Shown: positions 31,383 through 47,509 of the stretch, piece by piece
Numbering within the stretch: position 1 is the first letter of the stretch
Layout of the letters: each line of letters opens with the position of its first letter
Source of the DNA: Candidatus Liberimonas magnetica
Lineage (GTDB): Bacteria; Elusimicrobiota; Endomicrobiia; Endomicrobiales; JAFGIL01
DNA: 64,000 bases
Reading direction: 5' to 3'
Assembly: GCA_020523885.1 (NCBI GenBank)
Contig: JAJAPY010000020.1
Location: 1 to 64,000, forward strand
The notes under the pieces: generated by a model
Database searches by the model: none
Told to the model about the DNA's origin: nothing
Seen by the model: only the letters and a program-made list of their open reading frames with translations
Program-made: the position numbers and the translations under genes

Positions 31383-32540
31383 CTATTTACTTTGCTCTTC
31401 TTCTGTTTCAAACAAATCCTCTTCTTCAACAGGCAAGAACCATTTTTGGGCAATAAACGTAGGAATTACAGCGCTAGCAACAACAACCCCTACTAATATT
31501 GAATATTGCGATTGATCAATAATCCCTAATGATAACCCAAAAATACTTGAAATCGTACCGAATGTCAGGCCCGTGCTCATTAGCAAAGTTGTATACATGC
31601 TACCCTGTGGGATATACTTTTTTGCAAGAAAATATACTCCGATAAATTTTGTCGCTATTTTCAGGACAAAGAATAATACAAATAGCCACAAGCCTGAGAG
31701 AATCATCGGTATTGAGATATAAAGGCCTCCAACAATGAAAAATACGGGTGTAATAATAGCGTACGAAACGGTTCGTAGCCGGTTTCGTACGACTTTTTCT
31801 TCTGAAGTTTCACTGAAATGTTTTGACATAAGAAGGCCAAGTAAAAATGCAGGCAATACGGCATGCCCCTTCCCCATCTTTGCGAAAAACATAAAAATCA
31901 AAAGCAGAAGAAAAATATACTTTATTTCAGGCTCTATTACTTTATTCTTAATTTTCGGATGCCCAAAAATTAAATGCGAATATTTGGAGGCAATTATTAT
32001 CACTATAACCGAGACTATCACAAAAATTAGTGTGTATAAAGTCGGTTTAAGAAATAGAATGCTGAGAGCCAGGGCAGTCCCCATATCTGTAATGAACGTT
32101 GAAGCCATTAAAAGTTTGCCAACATAAGTTTTGGACAATCCTGTTTCAACCAAGACCGAATATACAACCGCAAGAGAAGTAGTTGATAATGCCGTTCCGG
32201 CAATCAATGAAGCCTGAAGTGTCCAATGAGAAACATAAAATGCATATAAAAACACACCAACAAACGGAAATAGGAACGAACAGCTTCCGATAAGAAAGCT
32301 TTCTTTGAATTTTTCTTTCATAAGTTGTGTGTCTATCTCTGTACCGGCTAGAAATGTTAATACTATACCGCCAAAACCAGCAAGATACATCATCCAGCCT
32401 TCAGATTTTAAGCCAAAGTAACCGGCAATTATGCCCATCAATATTTCAATAATTGCAACAGAGAGTTTTAACTTCAAAGATAATAAACTTGCCGAAAATA
32501 CTAAAATACCAACGATTAGCGGGGCAAGATCAGAATTCAT
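31383..32540 (-). CDS. CPA2-family cation:proton antiporter under fluoride riboswitch control
   Basis: A polytopic protein of about 385 residues with 11-13 transmembrane helices, resembling KefB/NapA-type monovalent cation:proton antiporters (GIVLTFLAGTEIDTQLMKEK, GTALSTTSLAVVYSVLVETG, FITDMGTALALSI). I use the ATG at 32540 with GGAGG six bases upstream. The frame is also open to a TTG within that ribosome-binding site. A fluoride riboswitch with a terminator lies in its leader, so fluoride should switch it on. Antiporters are known members of fluoride riboswitch regulons. It may expel fluoride indirectly or counter the accompanying ion and pH stress. Confidence 0.88.
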   Translation of the reverse strand: MNSDLAPLIVGILVFSASLLSLKLKLSVAIIEILMGIIAGYFGLKSEGWMMYLAGFGGIVLTFLAGTEIDTQLMKEKFKESFLIGSCSFLFPFVGVFLYAFYVSHWTLQASLIAGTALSTTSLAVVYSVLVETGLSKTYVGKLLMASTFITDMGTALALSILFLKPTLYTLIFVIVSVIVIIIASKYSHLIFGHPKIKNKVIEPEIKYIFLLLLIFMFFAKMGKGHAVLPAFLLGLLMSKHFSETSEEKVVRNRLRTVSYAIITPVFFIVGGLYISIPMILSGLWLFVLFFVLKIATKFIGVYFLAKKYIPQGSMYTTLLMSTGLTFGTISSIFGLSLGIIDQSQYSILVGVVVASAVIPTFIAQKWFLPVEEEDLFETEEEQSK

Positions 32541-32551
32541 TATTTCCTCCA

Positions 32552-32585
32552 AAAATAAAAATACCCCTACCGCAATCGGTAGAGG
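32552..32585 (-). terminator. Riboswitch expression-platform terminator
   Basis: On the minus strand CCTCTACC pairs with GGTAGGGG (32564-32585) and is followed by GTATTTTTATTTTT. The 5' arm of the stem is the 3' end of the fluoride aptamer, so folding of the aptamer and of the terminator are mutually exclusive. Confidence 0.85.
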
Positions 32586-32632
32586 TCATCAACCCGGAAC
32601 TTCAAGGTGGTTATACGGCGAACCTCATCGCC
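32579..32632 (-). promoter_or_regulatory. Fluoride riboswitch (crcB motif)
   Basis: The minus strand reads GGCGATGAGGTTCGCC, then AACC, a short hairpin, GGGTT and GATGACCTCTAC. This reproduces the crcB-motif layout: P1 GGCGA/TCGCC with the GATGAGG loop, and a pseudoknot between that loop and CCTCTAC. It closely matches the well-studied Thermotoga aptamer in these positions. The terminator at 32552-32585 provides an ON switch. Confidence 0.92.
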
Positions 32633-32645
32633 TTATTTTTGTTTA

Positions 32646-32953: not shown

Positions 32954-34009
32954 CTATTTTAAAGAAAATATAATGAAATATATTGTCATTATTATCAATC
33001 CTAAAGGCACTCCGAATTTTGCCCATTCTTTGCTTTTTATGTTAAGCCGACCGGCTGCAATTATGTTCGGCACATTGCCTGGAATAAGCATACCTCCGGA
33101 TATTAGAAGCCCCATAAGTATATATTGAATTTGCCCTAAACTCATTTTAGGGCTTACTTCAGCGGCAGTTAATGTTGCATTGTCCAATACAGCTGAAATA
33201 GTATTTATCCAGTAAAGAATAGGGCTTGGAAGAGTTATTATATAAGCATCTATTATAGGCTTAAACCCTGTGCCAAGATATACCAGGGCCATAATAAATA
33301 TGTAAACCCTTCCTGCGTAACCGAAAACATCTTTGATACTGCTCTTTTTCTCTTCAGAAAGGCTATTTTCGTTTGAATCTTCCTTAATCGATGGTTCAAT
33401 TAAGGCACCAAACAAACCTAATCCAAGGATACCTGGCAAAATATAGAGTCCAAGTGTCCTGAAAAGAAAAAAGAAATCTGCATTATACGGCTCACCTTTA
33501 AGCTTTGCTATCGCTATTGTTGATAATGGCTCACCTATAGGGGTAAGAACTGCACCAAGCCCAATAGAAAAACAGCCGAGTATGACAAGCTTTATTTCAT
33601 ATTCTTTATTTAATTTTAATGCATTGACAACTTCAACAAGGATTATAGATGACATAATAGCCGTAATAATGCTTGAAAACAATCCGAGTGCTATAACTAA
33701 AACAAAACTAAACCATTTTGAGCCGATTCTGCGCTCAACATTAACGATATATGCTGTTATCTTGTCCCTGAAGAAATACATTAAAAAACCAAAGACTATT
33801 ACAGCAATTGTTATCATTACCGGCTCAACCATGGATTCCTTAAATAGATGTATTGACCATACAGGCGCAACACCCCATATATGAGAACAGGTTACAGACG
33901 CTATTCCCATAATAAAAAGGAACACTTCCAGGTTCCTTTCAACCTTACCAATCGCAATTGGTAAGGCAAGCACAAGAAATAATATTACGAAGAGACTTAT
34001 TTCAAGCAT
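32954..34009 (-). CDS. DUF1646-family ion transporter-like protein
   Basis: A 351-residue membrane protein with about nine or ten helices and characteristic loops LGAVLTPIGEPLSTIAIAKL and SAVLDNATLTAAEVSP, near-palindromic halves typical of the ion transporter superfamily (ArsB/NhaD-like folds). DUF1646 proteins are thought to move cations or organic acids. The substrate is not known. Its position at the end of a trehalose and mechanosensitive-channel operon suggests ion movement during osmotic adjustment. Confidence 0.8.
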   Translation of the reverse strand: MLEISLFVILFLVLALPIAIGKVERNLEVFLFIMGIASVTCSHIWGVAPVWSIHLFKESMVEPVMITIAVIVFGFLMYFFRDKITAYIVNVERRIGSKWFSFVLVIALGLFSSIITAIMSSIILVEVVNALKLNKEYEIKLVILGCFSIGLGAVLTPIGEPLSTIAIAKLKGEPYNADFFFLFRTLGLYILPGILGLGLFGALIEPSIKEDSNENSLSEEKKSSIKDVFGYAGRVYIFIMALVYLGTGFKPIIDAYIITLPSPILYWINTISAVLDNATLTAAEVSPKMSLGQIQYILMGLLISGGMLIPGNVPNIIAAGRLNIKSKEWAKFGVPLGLIIMTIYFIIFSLK

Positions 34010-34367: not shown

Positions 34368-35579
34368 TCACAAATAAACTGTATCCTGATTTTGACCCAA
34401 CGATAAGAACAACAACATATAGTCTTTTAGGTGGCGAGTTAACAGGAAATTGTTTTTTATATGCTGCTTTCCGTTTTCTCCAAGCCGTAGTGCGTATTTT
34501 GGATGGTTTAATAATTGTTTTAAGGCAAATGCTGTTCCTTCTACGGAATATGTCAGCATTCCGGAATATCTGTTCGTAATTTGAAGAGGGATACCGCCAA
34601 CATTTCCAGCAACCACAGGTTTTGCTTTCCATAACGCTTCTGCTATGGTCAAACCGAAGCCTTCTTTTAATGATTTTTGAAGTATTACATCAGATGCCCT
34701 TTGCAGCGCATTTACTACTATATCATCCTGCGGTAAAAGCAGGATATGAATATCGGGGTCACCCTTCGACTGTTCTTTTACTTCTTCCAAAACAGCAATA
34801 CCTTCGGGATCATCGCTAGCCCCGCCCCCTGCAAGAATAAGCCTGCAATCAATATATTTCCTTACAAGCTTATACGCCTCTATTACCCCTAACGGATCTT
34901 TTAATCTGTCAAAACGGGAAATTTGAGTTATTATGGGTTTATCTTTGGGTATTGAATACTTTTCTAATACCGAATCAATAACCTCCTGTGGTAGTTCCTT
35001 ATTCTTATCACTTAAAGGGTCGATCGAAGGAGGTATGAGGAACTGCCTTATAGGCAGTACCTGTGAAAATTTCTGTGCTGAAAAAACAGAAGCATCGTAA
35101 TCTTTAATAAAACCCATTAAGAAATCCCAAACCTGTCTATTTGGATCGGACACATCGACATGGCACCGCCATATCCATTTATTTCCAGCCTTCTTTTTTA
35201 CAAGGGCTATTGGCTGAGGGTCATGAACAAATACTATATCGCCGTCAGTATTTAATTCATTAATATTTCTCTGGCTTGTTTCCATAAAAACATCAAAATC
35301 ACTCTTCTTTATTTCTTCCTGCTTACCATGCAGGGCGTTATGGAATCTCTTTGTTACTTCATAATACTGGGTTCCGCCTTTTACTATATCCCATTTAGAC
35401 TTAACACCCAATTCATTTAAAAGCGGTACCATGCGGTTCAGTATCTCCGCTACACCGCCGCCTACAGAAGTAGAGTTTATATGCTGGATAACCCTGCCTT
35501 TAAGCTTTCCCGCGAGAGTTCTTAAGTCATCTATTACTGCCTGCCCTACTATAGGAATATATTCATCGATCTTAGCCAT
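34368..35579 (-). CDS. TreT-like trehalose synthase (GT4)
   Basis: A 403-residue GT-B glycosyltransferase of the trehalose glycosyltransferring synthase type, which joins NDP-glucose and glucose to form trehalose directly. The N-terminal HINSTSVGGGVAEILNRMVP, the RFDRLKDPLGVIEAY strand and the C-terminal donor-site EGFGLTIAEALWKAKPVVAG fit this family. It starts one base after the DUF5752 gene. Because OtsA and OtsB lie in the same operon, the cell would have two trehalose routes, one of them reversible. Confidence 0.88.
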   Translation of the reverse strand: MAKIDEYIPIVGQAVIDDLRTLAGKLKGRVIQHINSTSVGGGVAEILNRMVPLLNELGVKSKWDIVKGGTQYYEVTKRFHNALHGKQEEIKKSDFDVFMETSQRNINELNTDGDIVFVHDPQPIALVKKKAGNKWIWRCHVDVSDPNRQVWDFLMGFIKDYDASVFSAQKFSQVLPIRQFLIPPSIDPLSDKNKELPQEVIDSVLEKYSIPKDKPIITQISRFDRLKDPLGVIEAYKLVRKYIDCRLILAGGGASDDPEGIAVLEEVKEQSKGDPDIHILLLPQDDIVVNALQRASDVILQKSLKEGFGLTIAEALWKAKPVVAGNVGGIPLQITNRYSGMLTYSVEGTAFALKQLLNHPKYALRLGENGKQHIKNNFLLTRHLKDYMLLFLSLGQNQDTVYL

Positions 35580-35580
35580 T

Positions 35581-36249
35581 TTAAGTTATCCTTCTGTATA
35601 CTATTTTGATTATGATTTTTCTTAAATCATCTAAAGCATATGTATAAGGGTCTAGTTTAGCGATCTCTTTTGCCAATTCAGCGTCGCCTATTGAGCTCTC
35701 AATCCAATTAGAAAAATCATTGCTTTCCCTTTCAAGCCTCAACCGTGCTTCAAACATATGGAAATATATTGAATTATTGCTTACTTTCTCTAAGGCTGTT
35801 TTAAATTCCGACAAGTCATTAGCGGTATAAGCTGTCGGAACGACAAAACTTATTGATTTATTAAAATAGAACTCCTTCCCAGCGCTGGCAAACCTCAAAC
35901 TGCACGAAGGACATTTATTTCTGTATTCTTCTATAACAGCAATGATCCTATCCCTTAACCCACGGATAGTGCCAAACTGCACAATGTCTATGCTTGCAAG
36001 TTTTTCCGCAAGTTCATCTTCACCCAAGGCATATGAAATCCAATACGCAAAATCATTCGGCGGCTCGGGAGACAGATACTCGTGCTGCTGCAAAAACCTG
36101 TGCGTATGATGATAAATGGAAGAGCCCGGCACTTCCTTCAGTAAAGCAAGCAATTCTTCAATATTATGGGCTTTAAGCCCCGTCAACTCTGAGAGGTTAA
36201 ACCTTGTATAAAATGTAAATTGTTCTTTTGCTTTTAACAATTCGCTCAT
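35581..36249 (-). CDS. DUF5752 family protein
   Basis: A 222-residue soluble protein with two similar halves, each carrying a phrase of the form SIYHHTHRFLQQ or SIYFHMFEARLRL and then W-rich segments (NDFAYWISYALGEDELAEKL, NDFSNWIESSIGDAELAKEI). I recognise it as the DUF5752 family, which is found beside trehalose synthases. The internal duplication suggests symmetry in one chain. It overlaps the GGDEF-Enzyme I gene by four bases and precedes TreT by one base, so a role in controlling or assisting trehalose synthesis is likely but unproven. Confidence 0.75.
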   Translation of the reverse strand: MSELLKAKEQFTFYTRFNLSELTGLKAHNIEELLALLKEVPGSSIYHHTHRFLQQHEYLSPEPPNDFAYWISYALGEDELAEKLASIDIVQFGTIRGLRDRIIAVIEEYRNKCPSCSLRFASAGKEFYFNKSISFVVPTAYTANDLSEFKTALEKVSNNSIYFHMFEARLRLERESNDFSNWIESSIGDAELAKEIAKLDPYTYALDDLRKIIIKIVYRRIT

Positions 36250-38858
36250 AAACCACCCCTTAACAATTCGGAAATTTTATTCCTGATAATTGGCACGAAT
36301 GGCGTAGGGACGCTGAAATTCTCCAAACCCAGCTTGAGTAAATCTTTTGTGTAATTAACATCGGATGCCATATCACCGCAGAGAACACATTCTTTGCCTT
36401 TATTATTACACGCCTTAATTACTCTTTCTATGTATTCCATAACCATTTCTGATCCGGCTTCGTAGTAGCTGGAAACCGATGAATTTTCACGTCCGGATGC
36501 TGTAGTATATTGTATAAGGTCATTTGTGCCTATGCTTACAAAATCTGCATGATTTAGTATCTCGTCAATTTTTAACACAGCAGCAGGAACTTCTATCATA
36601 GCGCCTAAAAGTATGTTTTCGTTAAAAGGAATATTTCCCAGCTTTAACAGGTTTTTGCATTCATTCAATTTCTGCCTTACCTTCAAAACATCATCAGGAA
36701 TTGTAACCATAGGAATTAGTATTTTAAGTTTATACTTAGCGCTTAGTTTTAGAAATACTCTTAACTCTGTTTCTAATACCTGCGGGTAGCCGAGCAGCAT
36801 CCTGACTCCCCGCAGTCCCAGCGACGAGTTCTGTTCTGTACCAAAGGAAAGGTAAGGAATGGTTTTATCGTTATTAATATCAAGCAGGCGGGCTGTTATC
36901 TCGGACCCTTTTAGTCCTGAAAAACATTTATCTAATGCATCATATAATTGTGTCTCACTTGGAAGCGTTTTGTGCTGCATATACAACTGCTCCAGCCTGA
37001 ATAACCCTATTGCGCTGCTTCCATATTCTAATGATTTGACCACTTCTTCGCGGGAATTTACATTAGACAAAACTTTTATTATTTTATTATCCTTCTTTAA
37101 TTCAATGTTTTTATTGCGACTTATATAATTCTTCCATTCTGATTCCTTTTGCTTAATTATTGCTTTAAGCGAAGATATCTCGTGCTTGTCAGGATTAATA
37201 ACTATCTCGCCGGAATCAGCATTTAAGATAGCGGGTTGTCCCGATGGAATATCTTCTAAATCATAATCAAACTGGCATATATAAGGTATCCTCATGCTTT
37301 TGGCAAGAAGCGCTGCATGTGAACTCTTGCTGCCTTCCTCTGTAAGCATCCCGACCACATTTCTACGTTTCATATATACTGTATCAGAAGGCAACAGCCT
37401 CTTGGATATAACAATTGTATTTTCAGGCAGTTGTTCTATGATATTCTTATCTATTCCCATAAGATAGCGCAAGACCCTTTTGCTAAGATCTAATATGTCA
37501 TCGCCTCTTTCTTTAATAATATCACTACCAGATTCCCTGAACCTGCCTTCCCATTTTTTAAATACACCTTTAACAACATTTTCTGCATTAACCATTCTTA
37601 ATTTTAAGTCTGTTTTTAGCTCATCTATAAGCTTTTGGTCATTAAGCACAAGCCAATGGAAATCAAAAAGATCAGAAAACTCCTTACCTATATGGTTTTT
37701 CATCTCTTTTCCCATTTCTTCAATATCATCTTTTACAAAGCCAAGAGCTTTTTGTATACGGTTAAATTCTGGTTCAACTTCATCTACGCTTATCTCGCGG
37801 TATTCTATATCTCTTTCAAGAATATCTTTATAAACATAAATATTACCTATAGATAAACCCGGAGAGATAGGAATACCTCTAATAACCAGCCTGATATTTT
37901 TATCCTTTTTATCGACAATGTTACAATTGTCTTTTTTTGTTTCTTCATGTTCGCTTATATTTTTTTCTTCATAAACATAAATTCTGTTCTTGCCCAGCCT
38001 TTTTGCCATATATACTGCTTTATCTGCTGCTTCTAAAGTTTCTGAAATACTCTTCAAATTGTCCATATTAAATGATGCAACACCAATGCTTACAGATACG
38101 CGTATATTGTCACTTCCAATTTCCTTGGGTTTTATATTTATCTTTCGGATATTTTCAATTATCTTTCTTGAAAATAATCCGGCTTCATTTTCCGAAGTGT
38201 TAGGCGCAAGCACTACGAATTCGTCGCCGCCGAATCTGTAGGCAGTATCAATAACCCTGACGTTTTTCTTTAGTACTTCACCGACTTTCAATATTACCTC
38301 ATCACCAGTCAAATGCCCGTATGTATCATTTATCTGTTTCAACTCATCAATGTCCATAAATAACAATGAAAAATATGACCCGTATCTTCTCGCCCTCTCA
38401 ATTTCTCTGTTCAATTCGTGAAAAAGAAGTTTCTTGTCATATATGTTTGTTTTATCATCTTCAATAGCAGCTCTTGCAAACGAAAGTATCTTGTCCTCTT
38501 CCATTATAAGCGGTTTTTTTAGGGTTCCTTTTATATTGGTCAAATAATCAAGAGACGCCACCTGTATACCGATGTTTCTATTAAGCACGGAAGATAGCAT
38601 CTTCTGATGAGCGATTATTGAATTAAACTTCTTTTTTGCTTCTTCTTCATCTGATGTTATCTCATGTGTAAGCACATAGATAAACTCAATATATATCTTA
38701 TTGCCTAATTCTTTTTTAAAACGGTTTAGCTTTTCTATCTGCTGGCTAGTTCCGTTTTTTTCGCCGGCAAATATTTCTATAAAATCCAGGTCAATTTTCT
38801 TTTCTTTGATAAACTTTGCCTCTTCTTCAAGGCAATCTGCTTTTCTTATGTGGACCAT
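36246..38858 (-). CDS. GGDEF diguanylate cyclase fused to PTS Enzyme I-like domain
   Basis: An 870-residue fusion from the ATG at 38858 (GGAGGT upstream; a GTG twelve bases earlier is also in frame). Residues about 1-130 are a novel-looking N-terminal domain. Residues 134-300 are a GGDEF domain with intact GGDEF (210-214) and a preceding RxxD inhibitory site (RVID). Residues 330-870 match the phosphoenolpyruvate-utilising Enzyme I family: the helical HPr-binding-like insert, the phosphohistidine loop SSHAALLAK (His about 514), and the C-terminal barrel with SIGTNDLIQYTTA and LCGDMASD. No HPr gene is in the window. It suggests PEP status coupled to cyclic di-GMP. Confidence 0.9.
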   Translation of the reverse strand: MVHIRKADCLEEEAKFIKEKKIDLDFIEIFAGEKNGTSQQIEKLNRFKKELGNKIYIEFIYVLTHEITSDEEEAKKKFNSIIAHQKMLSSVLNRNIGIQVASLDYLTNIKGTLKKPLIMEEDKILSFARAAIEDDKTNIYDKKLLFHELNREIERARRYGSYFSLLFMDIDELKQINDTYGHLTGDEVILKVGEVLKKNVRVIDTAYRFGGDEFVVLAPNTSENEAGLFSRKIIENIRKINIKPKEIGSDNIRVSVSIGVASFNMDNLKSISETLEAADKAVYMAKRLGKNRIYVYEEKNISEHEETKKDNCNIVDKKDKNIRLVIRGIPISPGLSIGNIYVYKDILERDIEYREISVDEVEPEFNRIQKALGFVKDDIEEMGKEMKNHIGKEFSDLFDFHWLVLNDQKLIDELKTDLKLRMVNAENVVKGVFKKWEGRFRESGSDIIKERGDDILDLSKRVLRYLMGIDKNIIEQLPENTIVISKRLLPSDTVYMKRRNVVGMLTEEGSKSSHAALLAKSMRIPYICQFDYDLEDIPSGQPAILNADSGEIVINPDKHEISSLKAIIKQKESEWKNYISRNKNIELKKDNKIIKVLSNVNSREEVVKSLEYGSSAIGLFRLEQLYMQHKTLPSETQLYDALDKCFSGLKGSEITARLLDINNDKTIPYLSFGTEQNSSLGLRGVRMLLGYPQVLETELRVFLKLSAKYKLKILIPMVTIPDDVLKVRQKLNECKNLLKLGNIPFNENILLGAMIEVPAAVLKIDEILNHADFVSIGTNDLIQYTTASGRENSSVSSYYEAGSEMVMEYIERVIKACNNKGKECVLCGDMASDVNYTKDLLKLGLENFSVPTPFVPIIRNKISELLRGGL

Positions 38859-39651
38859 AAGCACCTCCACACATCATATTCTTAACTGATTTAAGAAATG
38901 CAAAAACTTCGTCAGGGTTTTTAAGCTGGTAATCAGCATGAGAACTGCCTTTCTCACCCACAAATACGGTTATTCCTATGTTTTTCAAGGCCATAAAAGC
39001 ATCTTCATCAGTTAAATCATCGCCTAAACATATAGGGATTACCGAAGTGTCTGAAGCGTACTTTGATAAAATCCGTAAAACAGCGGTTCCTTTGTTCAGT
39101 TCAATGCTGGGCCTGATTTCATAACACATTTTCCCAAGCCAAATCCTAAGTTTCCCGTTTTTTACAGGTTTTTTTAACAGCTGATTGAATATTGCATTTA
39201 ATTGCGGCATATCCTTCTCATTAACCATGCGGTAATGCAGGGTAACCGCAAGTTTTTTGTCTTCTACTAATACTCCTTTGATTATTGATAGTTTGTCTTT
39301 AAGTTCGGACTTCATGGCTATCAATAGCTTCTTAACATCCGGCGCAATTTCCGCTTTATATATAAAATCCGGCCCCTCTATCTCAAGCCCGTGATTGCCT
39401 ACATAAGTTATATTTTGTAAACCCGCCATTTTTTTAACATCATTTAAATATCTTCCCGAAATTATAACGATCTTAACATGTGGCAACTTTGCCAGCGCAC
39501 TCAAAAGGCTTTTTACTTTTCCCGGTAAAACCGCCTTTTTGGGAGTATCCGCTAAAGAAACGAGCGTGCCGTCGTAATCCAAGAACAGCACCACGCTCTT
39601 GTTTTTCATTAATTTTAGGACTTCTTTTTCGTTCTCAAGCAATGATTTCAT
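38827..39651 (-). CDS. otsB: Trehalose-6-phosphate phosphatase OtsB
   Basis: A 274-residue HAD-superfamily phosphatase that removes phosphate from trehalose-6-phosphate. Motif I LDYDGTLVSL, motif II IISGR, the cap-domain YVGNHGLEIEGPDF and motif IV CLGDDLTDEDAF are present. It overlaps the MscS gene by four bases and the next gene by about 30. Partner of the OtsA fusion two genes upstream. Confidence 0.95.
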   Translation of the reverse strand: MKSLLENEKEVLKLMKNKSVVLFLDYDGTLVSLADTPKKAVLPGKVKSLLSALAKLPHVKIVIISGRYLNDVKKMAGLQNITYVGNHGLEIEGPDFIYKAEIAPDVKKLLIAMKSELKDKLSIIKGVLVEDKKLAVTLHYRMVNEKDMPQLNAIFNQLLKKPVKNGKLRIWLGKMCYEIRPSIELNKGTAVLRILSKYASDTSVIPICLGDDLTDEDAFMALKNIGITVFVGEKGSSHADYQLKNPDEVFAFLKSVKNMMCGGAYGPHKKSRLP

Positions 39652-40697
39652 TTCAATTCCGCCTTTTCCTGTATGTAATTGATAGCCCGTATAGGATACG
39701 GGATAGTAATATTTTCCTCTTTATATTTTTCATGGAGTTTCTTTACAAATTCGTGCTTTATCAGGTATTGATCCACAAACTCCTTTACCCGCAAGATGAC
39801 CGTGAACTGTATGCTTGAATCACCAAAAGTATGATAACGGATAAACGGCTCAAATTCAGGAACGCCGCCGTTTACGGTTTTCATTATTTCCTTGGCCGTT
39901 TCGCAAGTAATCCTTTCAACCTTATTTAGGTCGCTGTTATAATGAACTCCCAGATTTATTAGAACTGCCATTTCTTTATCAGGCATATGATAATTCGTTA
40001 TTATTGTTTTCGTAAGTTTATCATTCGGGATAAGTATGAGGTTATTCGCCAGCATTCTTACTTTTGTAGTCCGCCAGTTTATATCAGCCACGTATCCTTC
40101 TTCGCCTGTTTCGAGTTTAATGTAATCTCCGACCCTTACCTGATTGGAAACAATAATATAAAACCCTGCGAATAGATTGGATAAAGTATCCTGTAAAGCC
40201 AGAGCTATCGCTAACCCGCCCACGCCTAATGTTGCAAGGAAAGGGGTTATTGAAACACCCATGGTATGCAAAATTACTATAGCCCCGATGCTAAAAACGG
40301 CAATTTTTGTAAGGTTATGAGTAAGGCTTGCCATGCCGGAGGCTTTCTCAATACCTTTGGACGCTAACGATATCAGTTTCGTTAATATATTTGATAATAC
40401 GAACGTTATAGATGTTATTGCGAGTATTACAATAGCTTTTCCTGCTATCGTAATAAGTTCATTATTCATTGGAGCATATTTAACTGAAAAATATAAGCTA
40501 AGCATTACACACCACAATAAAGAAGGCTTTTTAAGGGCAGCAATTACAATATCATCTATCTCAGTTTTAGTTGATTTTGCCCAACCAGACAGGTATTTGA
40601 AAAATATATTTCGCAGAGCCACACCCGTAATAAATACCCCTACGAATACCCCCGCGGCAAACAGTATCCCGTCTCCTTTTAAAATATTCATAATCAT
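39648..40697 (-). CDS. MscS-family mechanosensitive ion channel
   Basis: A 349-residue small-conductance mechanosensitive channel. Four or so N-terminal helices are followed by the pore helix signature GVGGLAIALALQDTLSNLFA and the cytoplasmic beta and alpha/beta domains (VGDYIKLETGEEGYVADINW, LIPNDKLTKTIITNYH). Such channels release solutes on hypo-osmotic shock. Lying between otsA and otsB with overlaps on one side, it links the release valve to the synthesis of the compatible solute. Confidence 0.95.
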   Translation of the reverse strand: MIMNILKGDGILFAAGVFVGVFITGVALRNIFFKYLSGWAKSTKTEIDDIVIAALKKPSLLWCVMLSLYFSVKYAPMNNELITIAGKAIVILAITSITFVLSNILTKLISLASKGIEKASGMASLTHNLTKIAVFSIGAIVILHTMGVSITPFLATLGVGGLAIALALQDTLSNLFAGFYIIVSNQVRVGDYIKLETGEEGYVADINWRTTKVRMLANNLILIPNDKLTKTIITNYHMPDKEMAVLINLGVHYNSDLNKVERITCETAKEIMKTVNGGVPEFEPFIRYHTFGDSSIQFTVILRVKEFVDQYLIKHEFVKKLHEKYKEENITIPYPIRAINYIQEKAELK

Positions 40698-40706
40698 AAA
40701 ATTCCC

Positions 40707-42938
40707 CTATTTTTTTAATCCCGTCAAATCGTTAATAATTGCACCTGCCCATTTGAAAACATTGTTCTCTTTTACAATATTGTGCATATTCTTCATACGT
40801 TTAACTTTTTCTTCTTTTGGCATCTCAACAGCAAACCTTATTGCATCGGCAAATTTATCTATTGAATACGGGTTAATCTGTATGGCATCTGCAAGCTCCC
40901 TTGCAGCTCCGGTAAAACAACTTAAAATCAAGCTTCCGTTATAGTCGGTTTTGGAGGCGATATATTCTTTAGCCACCAGGTTCATGCCGTCATGCAAAGA
41001 ACTGACCAGGCAGAAATCTGCCATAGCATAATACGGCTTTATCTCATCGCTTGAAAAATGCTGCTTTAAATAGATTATCGGTTTCCAGCCGTTATCTGAA
41101 TACTTCCAGTTTATCCTTTCTACCACCTCATCAATCTCGCCCATCAATTCATGATATTTCTTAATATGTGTCCGGGATGGCGCGGCAAGCTGAATATACA
41201 CTATCTTTTTTCTATATTCCGGATACTTTTCAAGCAGTTTTTCTATTGCCAACATCCTTTCAACAAGCCCTTTTGTGTAATCAATCCTTTCAACACCTAT
41301 GCCGATTATTTTATCTTCCAAATCGTATTCTTTTTTTATGTCGTTTACAGATTGAGCAGTTTCTTTCGAGCCTGCATATGTATTTGTATCAACACTTATA
41401 GGAAAAGCCCGTATCAATGTTTCCTTATTATTTCTTACAACGCTGAACTTCTCTGTATCAATCCTGCTTTCAAGAAGGCGGTTACAGGTATCTATAAAAT
41501 TGTTGCAGTGGTATTGAACATGAAAACCTATCAAATCGCAGCCAAGCATCCCGTCAAGTATTTCTTCCTGGTACGGACATATTGAAAACACTTCAGGGTT
41601 AGGCCACGGTATATGCCAGAACATCGCAACTATAGCGTCCGGCCGTTTTTCCTTGATTAATTTGGGAAGCAGCGTAAAATGGTAGTCCTGAATAAATACA
41701 AAAGGTGTTTTTGAAGGCAGTTCCTCCAAAATGCTCTCGGCAAACTTCTCGTTGACCTTTTTATAAACCTCCCAATCCGTCTGCCTGAAAGTAGGCCTCG
41801 TATATGTTATATGGCAAAGAGGCCACAAACCTTCGTTTGAAAAACCAAGATAGTACCCGTTTTCTTCTTCCTTTGAAAGCCATATTCTTTTTAGTATATA
41901 ATGAATATCCTGCGGAGGTACTCCCAGTTTATCTTTAGAATTCACAAACTTTCTATCAGCCTGGCCGCTGCCCTGAGCTATCCACATCCCGCCGCAGGCT
42001 TTTAGTATAGGATCGAGGGCCGTAACCACACCGCTTGCAGGCCTTATACATTTAGGCTGGTTTGTATCTTCATCTAAAACATGCATATATGGTTCCCTGT
42101 TTGAAACCACAAAAAACGAGTTTTCCCCGAGTTTTGCATGAACCAGGTTTTTAAGTTTTGTTTCATCCCAGAGTTCAGCCTTATTTAAATTTCGTAATGC
42201 TTCAGTTGAAAGGGATTTCCTTGCTACCCGCAGCCCCAAAGCTACTTGTTCCACTTCGCTTGCGAATTTCCCGAAATCATCAATATCTTTAATCTTAAAC
42301 TGGTCATCAATATCGCCTTTCTGGAAAAGTTGGAACCATTCTGTAAGCCGCCTTAAAGGTAGCGTAAATATCTGTCTTTGCAGGATTAAAATGACTATCA
42401 CAATAGCAATTATAAGCCCAAAAAGAGTTATACTGGTCCTTCGCCATAACTCTGTTAACGTATTATTAATATAGGAAGTATCATATATTACTTTTAATAC
42501 ACCTAAAACCTCATTATTATCGTTTCTAACCGGGAATATGTAACTGTACAAGGAATACTCTTTATGCTTTTCCGTTTCATCAGCCGGCTCACCTTTGATA
42601 ATAGATATCTTTATCAGCCCTTTCTCATCTTTGCCAAGAAATTCAACTACCTTTTCAGTAACAGCTAATACTTTCATATCCCTACTGTAAAAAACGCAAC
42701 CTTGCAGGCGTTCTCTTTTCTGGAATATATCCGCAAGGCGCTGAGCGGTCTTAACATCATTTTTTATAAAAATATCTCTTGCCGATAGTTCCATACTTTC
42801 AGCAACATTTTTAGCTTTCCGTTTCAGGTCGTCATAAAGCCTTTCTTCCTGAAAACGCACCTGCAAAAATCCAAAAACAGCGAATACGCCCGCAATTATC
42901 ACAAGAATCGGCAATGTAAACAATAGAATTCTTTTCAT
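40707..42938 (-). CDS. otsA: Membrane sensor-HAMP fused to trehalose-6-phosphate synthase (OtsA)
   Basis: A 743-residue fusion. Residues 4-24 and 168-187 are transmembrane helices enclosing an extracytoplasmic sensor domain of about 140 residues. Residues 188-242 are a HAMP-like linker, and from about 275 to the end is a GT20 trehalose-6-phosphate synthase with RPASGVVTALDPIL, PFVFIQDYHFTLLP, GIGVERIDYTKGL and SSLHDGMNLVAKEY. The architecture of a chemoreceptor or histidine kinase is used to hold a metabolic enzyme at the membrane, so synthesis could respond directly to an external signal such as osmolarity. GAGG lies before the ATG. Confidence 0.92.
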   Translation of the reverse strand: MKRILLFTLPILVIIAGVFAVFGFLQVRFQEERLYDDLKRKAKNVAESMELSARDIFIKNDVKTAQRLADIFQKRERLQGCVFYSRDMKVLAVTEKVVEFLGKDEKGLIKISIIKGEPADETEKHKEYSLYSYIFPVRNDNNEVLGVLKVIYDTSYINNTLTELWRRTSITLFGLIIAIVIVILILQRQIFTLPLRRLTEWFQLFQKGDIDDQFKIKDIDDFGKFASEVEQVALGLRVARKSLSTEALRNLNKAELWDETKLKNLVHAKLGENSFFVVSNREPYMHVLDEDTNQPKCIRPASGVVTALDPILKACGGMWIAQGSGQADRKFVNSKDKLGVPPQDIHYILKRIWLSKEEENGYYLGFSNEGLWPLCHITYTRPTFRQTDWEVYKKVNEKFAESILEELPSKTPFVFIQDYHFTLLPKLIKEKRPDAIVAMFWHIPWPNPEVFSICPYQEEILDGMLGCDLIGFHVQYHCNNFIDTCNRLLESRIDTEKFSVVRNNKETLIRAFPISVDTNTYAGSKETAQSVNDIKKEYDLEDKIIGIGVERIDYTKGLVERMLAIEKLLEKYPEYRKKIVYIQLAAPSRTHIKKYHELMGEIDEVVERINWKYSDNGWKPIIYLKQHFSSDEIKPYYAMADFCLVSSLHDGMNLVAKEYIASKTDYNGSLILSCFTGAARELADAIQINPYSIDKFADAIRFAVEMPKEEKVKRMKNMHNIVKENNVFKWAGAIINDLTGLKK

Positions 42939-43027: not shown

Positions 43028-43243
43028 TTATTTGTTGGTTTCTTCTTTCTTTGCGGTTGATATCTTTAATATGGAGTATATAGGGCATAAACCTACAAAA
43101 CTTGTCATAAACAAAATAAAAGCAATTATCAATAAAATAACACCGAATATCCCGCTTATAAAACCTTTCAAATACAGCAATCCCAATGTTAAAGCAATGA
43201 CGATCCTTAAAATAGAATCCAATGTACCGATGTTTTTCACCAT
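43028..43243 (-). CDS. DUF2892 (YgaP-like) small membrane protein
   Basis: A 71-residue protein from the ATG at 43243 with GGAGG eight bases upstream. A TTG at 43258 is in frame but lies within the ribosome-binding site. It has the DUF2892 signature NIGTLDSILRIV, a hydrophobic hairpin, and SFVGLCPIYSIL with the conserved Cys-Pro. In other bacteria this domain occurs alone or fused to rhodanese. Its role here is unknown. It could be the first gene of the osmotic-stress operon (89 bp to otsA). Confidence 0.85.
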   Translation of the reverse strand: MVKNIGTLDSILRIVIALTLGLLYLKGFISGIFGVILLIIAFILFMTSFVGLCPIYSILKISTAKKEETNK

Positions 43244-43249
43244 TTCAAT

Positions 43250-43320
43250 ATCCTCCAAATAAAAAAGCCGCTACTGGATAAATTATCCAGATGGCGGCCC
43301 GACCATCTAATCCTCCAAAT
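43250..43320 (-). terminator. Terminator hairpin flanked by an 11-bp direct repeat
   Basis: On the minus strand GCCGCC, CTGGATAA, TTATCCAG and GCGGC form a nested perfect hairpin followed by TTTTTT. It lies between two exact copies of ATTTGGAGGAT (43250-43260 and 43310-43320), 60 bp apart, each followed by an ATG. The upstream ATG opens an eight-codon frame (Met-Val-Gly-Pro-Pro-Ser-Gly, stop) that runs into the terminator. This could be a leader-peptide attenuator or a small insertion with target duplication. Confidence 0.7.
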
Positions 43321-43874
43321 CGCTTAAAAGCAATCTGAACCCTTTAGAACAATATTTAGATGACTAAATTATAGCTTAATATATTACAAAATTCAATGTG
43401 AGTCCTCAATCTTTAATGGTAAAAGATAACTCCTTGGTTTGTGCCACTATTATGACAAAATTTGTCTGTTTCTTTATTCAGCTGCGCTTCATTCTTTCTT
43501 CTTATTGGCTTTTACAGCCCTCCAAACCGATATTTGAAGCCTTGTAAGTACTTTTATGGCCTTCCTGCTAGTCTGGATCATACTTTGTTACCCTTAGAAC
43601 GAACATGGCTTACAAAAGATGTGATTATATCAAAAAGGGCGGTTGTAGGGATGTCCGTTATTTTACAAGTTTCTTTATTTACAATGTCTGTTATTTTTTT
43701 TACTGCTTTTGGCAAGATGTCCGTTATTTTATATGCTATTATAACTAAAAAGACCGTTATGTCTATATGTAAAGTATCTGGAAGGCATGAATTGTGTTGT
43801 TGTTAAGGTTTACAGATTTTTTACAGATGGGTTATCGACGATGGTGTCCGTTATATCGACGACTTGATTTTTGC

Positions 43875-43989: not shown

Positions 43990-45708
43990 TTATTCTAAAT
44001 ATTCCCTCAATTGTTTGCTTCTTGAAGGATGCCTTAATTTTCTGATAGCTTTTGCCTCAATCTGCCTGACCCTTTCCCTGGTAACCCCGAATATCTTTCC
44101 AACCTCTTCTAAAGTCCTCGGGTAACCGACCCCTATACCGTAACGCAGGCGGATTATATCCGCTTCTCTTGGAGTAAGCGTGCATAAAACTTTTTCTATC
44201 TCCATCTGCACCCTGTATTCATTGTTTTTCTGCACAGGGCTCGGGTTATTATGGTCTTCTATAAAATCTTCAAGTCTTGAGTCTTCCTCTTCGCCGATTG
44301 GAGTTGCAAGGGAGATCGGGTCCTGCATCATTTTTAAGACCTTCCTCATCCTGTCGCTTGACATCCGAAGCAGTTTGCAGTATTCTTCGATCGTAGGGTC
44401 TCTGCCGTATTCCTGCTGGTAACGTTTTTTGACTTTTGTAAGCTTGGATATCAGCTCTTTCATATGGACAGGGATACGTATTGTCCTCGACTGATCTGCT
44501 ATAGCCCTGTTTATAGATTGCCTGATCCACCAAGTGGCATAAGTTGAGAATTTGAAACCGCGTTTCCACTCGAATTTTTCAACAGCCTTTGACAGGCCTA
44601 GGTTCCCTTCCTGAATGAGGTCTGAAAGCTCCAGGTTGCTCATTCCGACATGTTTTTTTGCTATCGATACTACGAGGCGGAAATTCGCCTGAATAAGTTT
44701 CATTTTATCGTCATGAATAACCTGTTCGAGTTCTCTTATCCTTTCATCCGTTGTCAGGAGGTCTTCCCGGCTGACAGAAAGCCCGTCTCCTACTCTTCTT
44801 CTTCTATGCAGTACGGCCTCTAGATTCTGTATCAAAGCTTCTATACCGGTGGGGGTATATCCCGTCTGCCGTTTAAATTCGTTGAAACTGACCCTTTTTG
44901 TTTTATATAAACGATAAAGCTGTAAAACCTTATTGTAGGGCATCTTAAGCTTTTTTTCATAACGTTTTAGCTCGTCTTCCAGTTCCCTGATCTTTGTTGC
45001 AGTAGTTTTTATCTTGTTGATCAACCTCTTTATTTTATCCTGGTTCAGATTAAGGCCAACTATTATATTGATGATCTCCGCGCTCATGGATTCAATAAAA
45101 ACAGATAATTTGCTTTTTTCCTTGTCTGTGACCTTGCTTTTTTTAAGCTTCTCCTGGGCCTTTTCTATTTTTTTCTCATGTTTTGTTATCTGGTTTACGG
45201 CTTTTCTTATTTTTTGGCGCATCCTGCGAAGCTGTCCTGTAGATTTTCTTCCTCTCGGCATCAGTTCTTTGGGAGTCATTTCCTGTTGGCTTATCAACGT
45301 TTCCCAGTTCCGTATTTCTTTTAATATTATTGGGGATTCAAGCACCAGGTGTTTAAGCAATTTTTCATTTTCCCTTATACTGCGTGCCAGGTTTACCTCA
45401 GTAGTACGGTCAAGAAGCGAGACCTTGGCCATTTCGCTCAAATACATCCTTACAGGGTTTGTTATCTCATCCTCATCTTCTTCTTTTTGCAGTACTTCTA
45501 TTACCTCGGCCGGTTTTTGTGTAAATTCTTTTCCTTTGTCGACTACCGCTATGCCCAGTTCATCGAGCGTCCCGAAAAATTCATCTATTTTCTCAGGGGA
45601 CATAACTGTACCCGGTATATTTTTATTTATCTCATCATAAGTTATAAACCCGTGGCTTTTGCCGAGTTCTATTAGTTCTTTGAATACATCTGTTTTTTTG
45701 TTTTCCAT
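43990..45708 (-). CDS. rpoD: Primary RNA polymerase sigma factor RpoD
   Basis: A 572-residue sigma-70. It has region 1.2 ([18 protein letters not shown]), a large charged non-conserved region, regions 2.1-2.4 ([50 protein letters not shown]), region 3 and the region 4 helix-turn-helix ([18 protein letters not shown]). The start is one base after the dnaG stop. It is the last gene of a macromolecular-synthesis cluster (rpsU, NIF3-like, dnaG, rpoD). Confidence 0.97.
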
Positions 45709-45709
45709 A

Positions 45710-47509
45710 CTACTTTACTGTCCCCTTTAATTGTCTGTTCAACTCATGGTAAAGACGCATTTTACTGTTATCAAGAGGCATATTACCGTCTAGCATCAGG
45801 ACTATTTCTTTTTCCAATTGTTTCCTCTCGGTCTCAAGTTTTTTTTGTTTCCCGTCCTTTAGCAAATTTAAAAGCGTTTGTTCGGGTGAAATGTAATTCT
45901 TTTCCTCTAATATCAGTTCAGTGAACCAGCGGGCTTCTTCTTCATCGAGCCTGCTGATTATTTCAGAACTGTGCATATCTTGTAATAAAAAAGAACAAAC
46001 TTGTTTATTGCGTTCAATCTGGAACACCTCTTCCGTTACCATCGAACGGCACTGTGAAAAATTCGCTATAATCTGAAGTATCTCCTCTTCCACGGAACGC
46101 ATTAACGTCACAGGCTTTTTTAATATTTCAGGAGTATCTTTGTACCCCCCTTTTTGCTGCCTTTTGATTTCCTGCAACATTGCTTCTTCTGATATTTTTA
46201 ATTTATCAGACACAAACTTGATCCAGGCATGTCTGACAACTTCATTTTTAACTTTTTTTATAAAAGGAATTAACTCTGCAGTAAATTTTGCTTTGTCATC
46301 AACCGAAGTAATATCTATTCTCTTCATGGCATTTTCAATTAAAAACTCTATTGCCGGTTTCTCTTGTTTTGCTATAAATTCCTGTAAACTTTCTTTTCCG
46401 TTTTTTAAAACATATTCATCAGGATCTAAGCCATCAGGTAACACACACACTTTTGCTGTCAGCTCAGTATTCAATATAACTTCTAAAGCACTTTTAGCTT
46501 TATCTAAAATAGGTTTAAGAACTCCAGGATTAGGTTCAGTATCTAGGGAAACATCTAAAGCTTTTTTAGCTGCTTTTTCTCCTGCAGCATCCGAATCAAA
46601 CAACATGGTTATTTCTCCCACATATCTTAGGAGCATATAAGTTTGTTGGAGAGTCAGGGCAGTGCCGAGCGCCGCAACAGTGTTGGTGACACCATACTGG
46701 TGCGTCATTACCACATCCATATACCCTTCAAGAACGATAACTTTTTTATCCTGCCTGAGCTTTGGTATTGCGTTGAATAACCCATACAACTGGTTAGATT
46801 TGGAATAAACTATGGTTTCAGGAGTATTAAGGTACTTTGGCTGCTCATCCTTAAGAGTCCTTCCTCCAAAAGCGACTATACGCCCCTGAGCATCGTGGAT
46901 AGGGAAAACAAGCCTTTCCGACATATACTCATATATCTTTCCGTTCTCGGTTTTAGTTACAATGCCTGCTTTAATGAGCTGTTCAAGTGTTATGCCTTTT
47001 TTTGTTGCGGCAGATAAAAGAAGTCCTCTCGGGGCATAACCAAGGCAGAATTTTTTTATTGACGTCTCATCTATACCTCGTTTCTTCAAATACCTGAGAG
47101 CGACAGAACCATCTTCTGAGTCAACCATGCACCTATGATAAAATTCGCCGGCATTTTCCAAAATATCGTATACTTTTTGTTTTTCCGATTTACTGATCAA
47201 ATTTTCATCTGATTCTTCCCTTATTACAATCCCTGCCCTGTGCGCAAGTTTTTTTACCGCTTCAGGCCAGGCCAGGTTATCCATCTGCATTAAGAATTTA
47301 AACGCATCTCCTCCTGTATGGCAACCAAAACAGTGAAATATGCCTTTTTCAGAGCTTATCATAAAAGACGGGGTTTTTTCATGATGGAAAGGGCACAAAG
47401 CTCTCCAATTACGACCGGCTTTCTTTAAGTTCGGGACATATTCTCGTATCAACTCGACTATATCAGTTGATAACCTAATTTGGTCAATAATCTCATTAGG
47501 AATAGTCAT
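45710..47509 (-). CDS. dnaG: DNA primase DnaG
   Basis: A 599-residue primase. It carries the N-terminal CHC2 zinc motif ([11 protein letters not shown] then [10 protein letters not shown]), the RNA polymerase domain with the TOPRIM strands [17 protein letters not shown] and [13 protein letters not shown], and a C-terminal helicase-interacting domain. It makes replication primers. Located directly before rpoD in the classical macromolecular-synthesis order. Confidence 0.97.

Follow-up and report, generated by a model that had tools for sequence, protein, structure and literature searches.

The locus raises the question of whether a single gene joins a GGDEF diguanylate cyclase to a PTS Enzyme I (EI) and, if so, what such a chain may do. 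It is located in a window of 64,000 nucleotides, the whole stretch of DNA analysed, from a genome of 3.39 Mb in 29 contigs that is 97.8% complete. The coordinates given by the first-pass annotation were right, and the gene is encoded on the minus strand. Its parts are the following:

36246..38858, minus: GGDEF-EI fusion gene (P0001), 870 aa, from domain searches, with a ribosome-binding site before the ATG
38484..38858, minus: N-terminal domain, residues 1-125, common to stand-alone GGDEF proteins of the phylum
37983..38465, minus: GGDEF diguanylate cyclase domain, residues 132-292, with the I-site RVID (Pfam)
36267..37883, minus: Enzyme I half, residues 326-864 (Pfam, TIGR01417, aligned catalytic residues), comprising an HPr-binding/phospho-His part (326-550, H514) and a PEP barrel (587-864)

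The reading frame of P0001 comprises 870 residues with no stops and overlaps neighbour genes at both ends. It starts at an ATG (38858) with a GGAGGTG ribosome-binding site in front; an alternative in-frame GTG upstream of it (38870) has no site of this type. Four Pfam domains were identified: GGDEF at 132-292 (E 8.5e-40), PEP-utilisers_N at 327-451 (E 4.8e-20), the mobile phospho-His domain at 478-550 (E 6e-15) and PEP-utilizers_C at 587-864 (E 6e-76). The best solved relatives are, for one half, the EI of 2hro and that of E. coli (2kx9/2hwg) and, for the other, GGDEF domains such as that of DosC; a single-sequence AlphaFold model (pLDDT 34) presented no usable domain geometry. The proposed coexistence of GGDEF and EI in one chain is confirmed by the Pfam and TIGR01417 matches, being far beyond chance and recurring in a second protein of the genome, P0002. 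That an assembly artefact had fused two genes has a negligible probability: the frame is uninterrupted and overlaps both neighbours, and the artefact is ruled out by P0002, an independent full-length copy on another contig. GGDEF-EI is a novel domain combination of two families already known.

The EI half was matched by TIGR01417 at residues 326-864 with 420 bits (cut-off 341.7), covering positions 1-538 of the 565 in the profile, which leaves the (beta/alpha)8 barrel whole; the missing part is only the EI tail. The description of this half as complete stands for the barrel and the catalytic residues and fails for the last ~30 residues of the EI profiles. Aligned on E. coli EI, the catalytic residues are all kept in P0001 and P0002; in the former they are H514 (H189 in E. 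coli), R621 (R296), R657 (R332), R683 (R358), E756 (E431), N779 and D780 (N454 and D455), R790 (R465) and C827 (C502). The functions of these E. coli residues, used as reference, are established for EI. H514 lies within the loop GSKSSHAALLAK, and the phosphohistidine loop and PEP-barrel motifs recorded at first sight are thus present with all catalytic positions kept.

The EI half could nevertheless be a sensor that binds PEP or a keto acid and has lost onward phosphate transfer. This would agree with the missing C-terminal ~30 residues, with N662 in P0001 where G is usual, and with the HPr-contact positions, just 24-33% identical to those of the genome's own EI, P0004, in a half where the HPr-binding domain is present. 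The contact comparison is without power, since P0004 is equally distant from E. coli at these positions (24%), and both copies retain the phospho-acceptor histidine with its loop; a pure sensor is very unlikely.

The GGDEF half contains GG[DE]EF and the metal/GTP-binding motif DxDxxKxxND..GH..GD in both copies, and P0001 retains DIDELKQINDTYGHLTGD. The intact GGDEF motif with an RxxD site that had been reported is found in P0001, with the I-site RVID and GGDEF at 201-214. The I-site position of P0002 is KKSD, the R being lost, so the two copies do not share feedback. Alignment to EI and GGDEF proteins revealed no loss of catalytic residues in either half, and both enzymatic halves look competent as far as sequence can tell. 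Alternatively, the EI half may be the output, a specialised PEP-dependent phosphodonor for HPr or another carrier, with the GGDEF and N-terminal domains regulating it, for example through GTP or c-di-GMP at the I-site. The EI residues are fully kept, the HPr-binding subdomain is present, and a regulatory domain N-terminal to EI has a precedent in GAF-EI (PtsP; PMC2405797). However, neither copy has lost any GGDEF catalytic residue and P0002 is without the I-site, in contrast to degenerate GGDEF receptors, and the genome already has a housekeeping EI next to HPr; EI as the output is unlikely.

The second copy, P0002 (G000:C9, another contig), comprises 865 aa and is 45% identical to P0001 over residues 6-867. 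The EI active-site shell is 82% identical between the copies and the barrel overall 48%, which argues that the shell was held by selection after duplication; the ~30-residue linker (296-325) is 30% conserved. The residue pattern is apparently the one expected from selection on both enzymes, the fusion apparently being duplicated and under selection. P0002 is flanked on one side by a family-2 glycosyltransferase, a response regulator-GGDEF, a response regulator with a class III cyclase domain and a histidine kinase, and on the opposite side by an integrase fragment; no trehalose genes were identified in its neighbourhood. Both fusion genes have a GC content of 0.35-0.36 versus 0.38-0.44 for most others, an AT-richness compatible with later acquisition and not decisive.

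The N-terminal ~130 residues had been described as unlike any sensor, a claim that did not survive: the domain is found at the head of stand-alone GGDEF proteins throughout the phylum. P0003, a stand-alone protein of 309 aa from the same genome, contains the P0001-type N-terminal domain and GGDEF and nothing else. Among the 341 genomes of the phylum, a profile of the three copies identified matches in 29, with E < 1e-12 in 17 (the genome itself among these), and uniqueness of the domain was rejected on the clear matches (E below 1e-12) in the 16 other genomes. Its signature is roughly HKYxxSExLGRNVGIRVAxLDYLxNI. The C-terminal part of DUF4032 (PF13224) matched weakly in all 10 proteins scanned, including P0003, the best match having 24.9 bits (cut-off 23.8) and only this protein being above the cut-off; the N-terminal domain of P0001 itself presented no DUF4032 match, and no significant match of the domain was found among PDB sequences. 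On this distribution, the association of the domain with GGDEF is an old one in the phylum.

Nine aligned relatives comprise the N-terminal domain, GGDEF and a C-terminal AMPK1_CBM/CBM48 domain. These proteins (L032-L041) share the N-terminal domain and GGDEF of the fusion and contain a glycogen-binding-type module in place of its EI. The fusion's EI thus occupies the position of that module, as if the scaffold took carbon-status modules there, and a glycogen-binding-type domain on the same GGDEF scaffold suggests a wider class of carbon-status-reading cyclases. The L032-L041 family is possibly a glycogen-reading diguanylate cyclase; several members (e.g. L032:1501-2601, plus strand) adjoin an NrdR-like gene. 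A looser coupling has also to be considered, in which both halves are active, the fusion places c-di-GMP synthesis beside PTS proteins and the N-terminal domain truly regulates GGDEF, as in P0003. The occurrence of this domain at the head of GGDEF proteins without EI (P0003 and the relatives) agrees with it, as does the variable linker, whose poor conservation gives no support to a tight mechanical link between the halves; the retention of a complete catalytic EI centre by two fusion copies, beyond the needs of a docking module, speaks against it, and loose coupling appears rather improbable.

The search for further fusions covered several collections. None was identified among the 340 other genomes of the phylum (E below 1e-100), none of the 72,556 plasmid records contained at least 80% of either copy, and the viral contigs searched for the fusion gave no match. 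A pattern scan of 84,980 species genomes, which detects close relatives only, returned just one GGDEF, unrelated to the fusion, from a Clostridia MAG. In the candidate third fusion, from genome G228, the gene leaves the contig end inside GGDEF and the only EI there is a separate frame of 558 aa. No GGDEF-EI protein was found in open-licence papers. The fusion is rare as far as searched, chiefly in its own phylum and plasmids, other phyla being covered in less depth. In the EI tree P0004, the genome's own PtsI, groups with its order and by this placement is vertically inherited. The two fused EIs lie apart, on a long branch with full support and a stem of 2.2 changes per site; the exact placement of this clade is unsure because of the long branches. 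The longest branch of the tree is P0005 (L027:5495-7216, plus strand), a stand-alone and strongly diverged second Enzyme I with no HPr nearby.

Known systems resemble the fusion in part. With PTS Enzyme I (PtsI; TIGR01417; PDB 2hwg, 2hro) it shares the same three EI domains in order and all catalytic residues at ~30% identity, whereas its EI sits behind GGDEF, lacks the last ~30 residues and belongs to a long-branched clade apart from the order's own EI. EI-Ntr/PtsP (GAF-EI) likewise contains a signalling domain N-terminal to a complete EI (PMC2405797), but the N-terminal part of the fusion is an enzyme (GGDEF) plus another domain; Pfam gave no GAF match in P0001, and NF008283 gave 258 bits (cut-off 583). 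The multiphosphoryl transfer proteins (IIA-HPr-EI) also have EI within a fusion (PMC2405797), and no HPr or IIA domain was identified by Pfam in the P0001 chain. Finally, the active-site motifs are those of the diguanylate cyclases PleD, WspR and DgcZ, with the I-site in P0001, the differences being the C-terminal EI and the N-terminal domain without Pfam assignment.

An HPr gene elsewhere in the genome, proposed as a check, was found together with a full PTS. The locus comprises HPr, EI, EIIA-, EIIB-, EIIC- and EIID-like genes, HPr kinase and RapZ-like genes (names partly by sequence resemblance), and the EII genes of the genome are of the mannose type. With P0004 as a separate EI, the housekeeping function does not depend on the fused one. 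The c-di-GMP set of the genome contains 10 GGDEF, 6 PilZ and 5 HD-GYP-type matches above cut-off and no EAL domains, so partners for either half of the fusion are encoded. A second HPr-like protein (L028:7634-7900, minus), cysteine-rich and with the active site GLHLRVA, belongs to a sulfur-assimilation cluster with an Rrf2-like regulator.

The reading we favour, with a confidence somewhat short of even, is a cytoplasmic diguanylate cyclase that would be set by its built-in Enzyme I as metabolic sensor. GGDEF domains synthesise c-di-GMP only when two of them meet, and in ordinary EI the binding of PEP leads to phosphorylation of the active-site histidine. PEP binding also stabilises the dimeric, compact and closed form of EI (PMC7385036). 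In the fusion, PEP binding and/or phosphorylation of H514 would close or dimerise the EI half and alter how two GGDEF domains meet, activating or inhibiting them; HPr may take the phosphate off the EI half and reset the cyclase, and the c-di-GMP output would track the PEP/pyruvate ratio and the PTS flux. We infer the activity of both halves, their coupling and its sign, and control of c-di-GMP output by PEP state seems plausible. The variable linker, the long branch of the fused EIs and the loss of the I-site R in P0002 weigh against this reading, whose chief competitors are coupling in the opposite direction and a loosely joined scaffold. The PTS-c-di-GMP links known so far have another form, that of protein contacts such as EIIAGlc with the phosphodiesterase PdeS in Vibrio (PMC10333796). 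Both complete enzymes in one chain would connect phosphoenolpyruvate to a second messenger by the shortest route possible, and the well-studied PEP-driven dimerisation of EI offers a directly testable gating mechanism.

The surroundings of P0001 in the window comprise the following elements:

43289..43342, minus: nhaA-I (Li+-I type) riboswitch aptamer (Rfam), with an overlapping terminator-like hairpin
43028..43243, minus: 71-residue hydrophobic ORF, between the riboswitch and otsA
40707..42938, minus: trehalose-6-phosphate synthase (OtsA) with a membrane-sensor-like N-terminus
39648..40697, minus: MscS-type mechanosensitive channel
38827..39651, minus: OtsB-type trehalose-6-phosphate phosphatase, overlapping the fusion gene by 32 nt
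35581..36249, minus: DUF5752 protein, overlapping the fusion gene's end by 4 nt
34368..35579, minus: TreT-type trehalose synthase (glycosyltransferase)
32954..34009, minus: DUF1646 membrane protein, putative cation transporter, after a gap of 358 nt from TreT; membership of the transcript uncertain

The gene is indeed part of a trehalose operon with overlapping neighbours, OtsB and DUF5752, as the first-pass annotation had it, in the order nhaA-I riboswitch, hydrophobic ORF, OtsA, MscS, OtsB, GGDEF-EI, DUF5752 and TreT. The riboswitch (Rfam RF03057) was identified with 42.2 bits against a gathering score of 37. The predicted fold of the leader contains a strong hairpin using the second stem of the aptamer and ending in U6 (z -4.2), as expected of a transcription-terminating switch. 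A promoter-like TTGAAT-17-TATAAT is located just upstream of the aptamer, such sites being no more frequent in the region than in shuffles.

In the relative G004 the same riboswitch (L050:13430-13479, minus) is followed by OtsA-OtsB-DUF5752-TreT, without MscS or the fusion, so that two families of the order have an nhaA-I riboswitch before a trehalose operon. Li+-I riboswitches occasionally control trehalose-6-phosphate synthase genes, where they are perhaps Na+-sensing variants (PMC9646797), a published remark that the two trehalose-operon riboswitches support. With a G004 operon that has no fusion, the fusion appears to be a late arrival: most simply, the operon and its switch are older and the fusion was inserted in this lineage, its loss in G004 being less likely. 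The suggestion that the gene reports carbon or energy status to osmolyte synthesis is weakened: it draws on one locus only, the relative's operon is without the fusion and the paralogue P0002 is away from trehalose genes, which makes the trehalose link a single case.

The operon copy would be expressed together with the trehalose genes, behind a cation-sensing riboswitch, and two fusion copies, one of them in a salt-stress operon, suggest a possible direct wire from metabolic state to second messenger. A fuller version of the favoured reading, which we put forward only tentatively, is a PEP-gated cyclase in which a DUF4032-like plus GGDEF scaffold would take interchangeable C-terminal carbon-status modules (a glycogen-binding domain or, here, Enzyme I); PEP and PTS flux would be converted to c-di-GMP, and one copy would be made only when the cation riboswitch turns on the osmolyte operon.

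Other elements were identified within and around the operon. OtsA (40707-42938) is fused to an N-terminal, HAMP-like sensor region with two TM segments (WalK-like at residues 1-246), an architecture also present at L050:11109-13343, and is possibly a membrane osmosensor-synthase. Wherever a genome of the order has DUF5752, which is the case in three (L047, L048, L046), it adjoins TreT. A dnaG-rpoD pair (43990-47509, minus), oriented like the riboswitch-trehalose operon, is located directly upstream of it, and a fluoride riboswitch (32573-32641, minus) lies directly 5' of a CPA2-type Na+/H+ exchanger gene (31383-32552).
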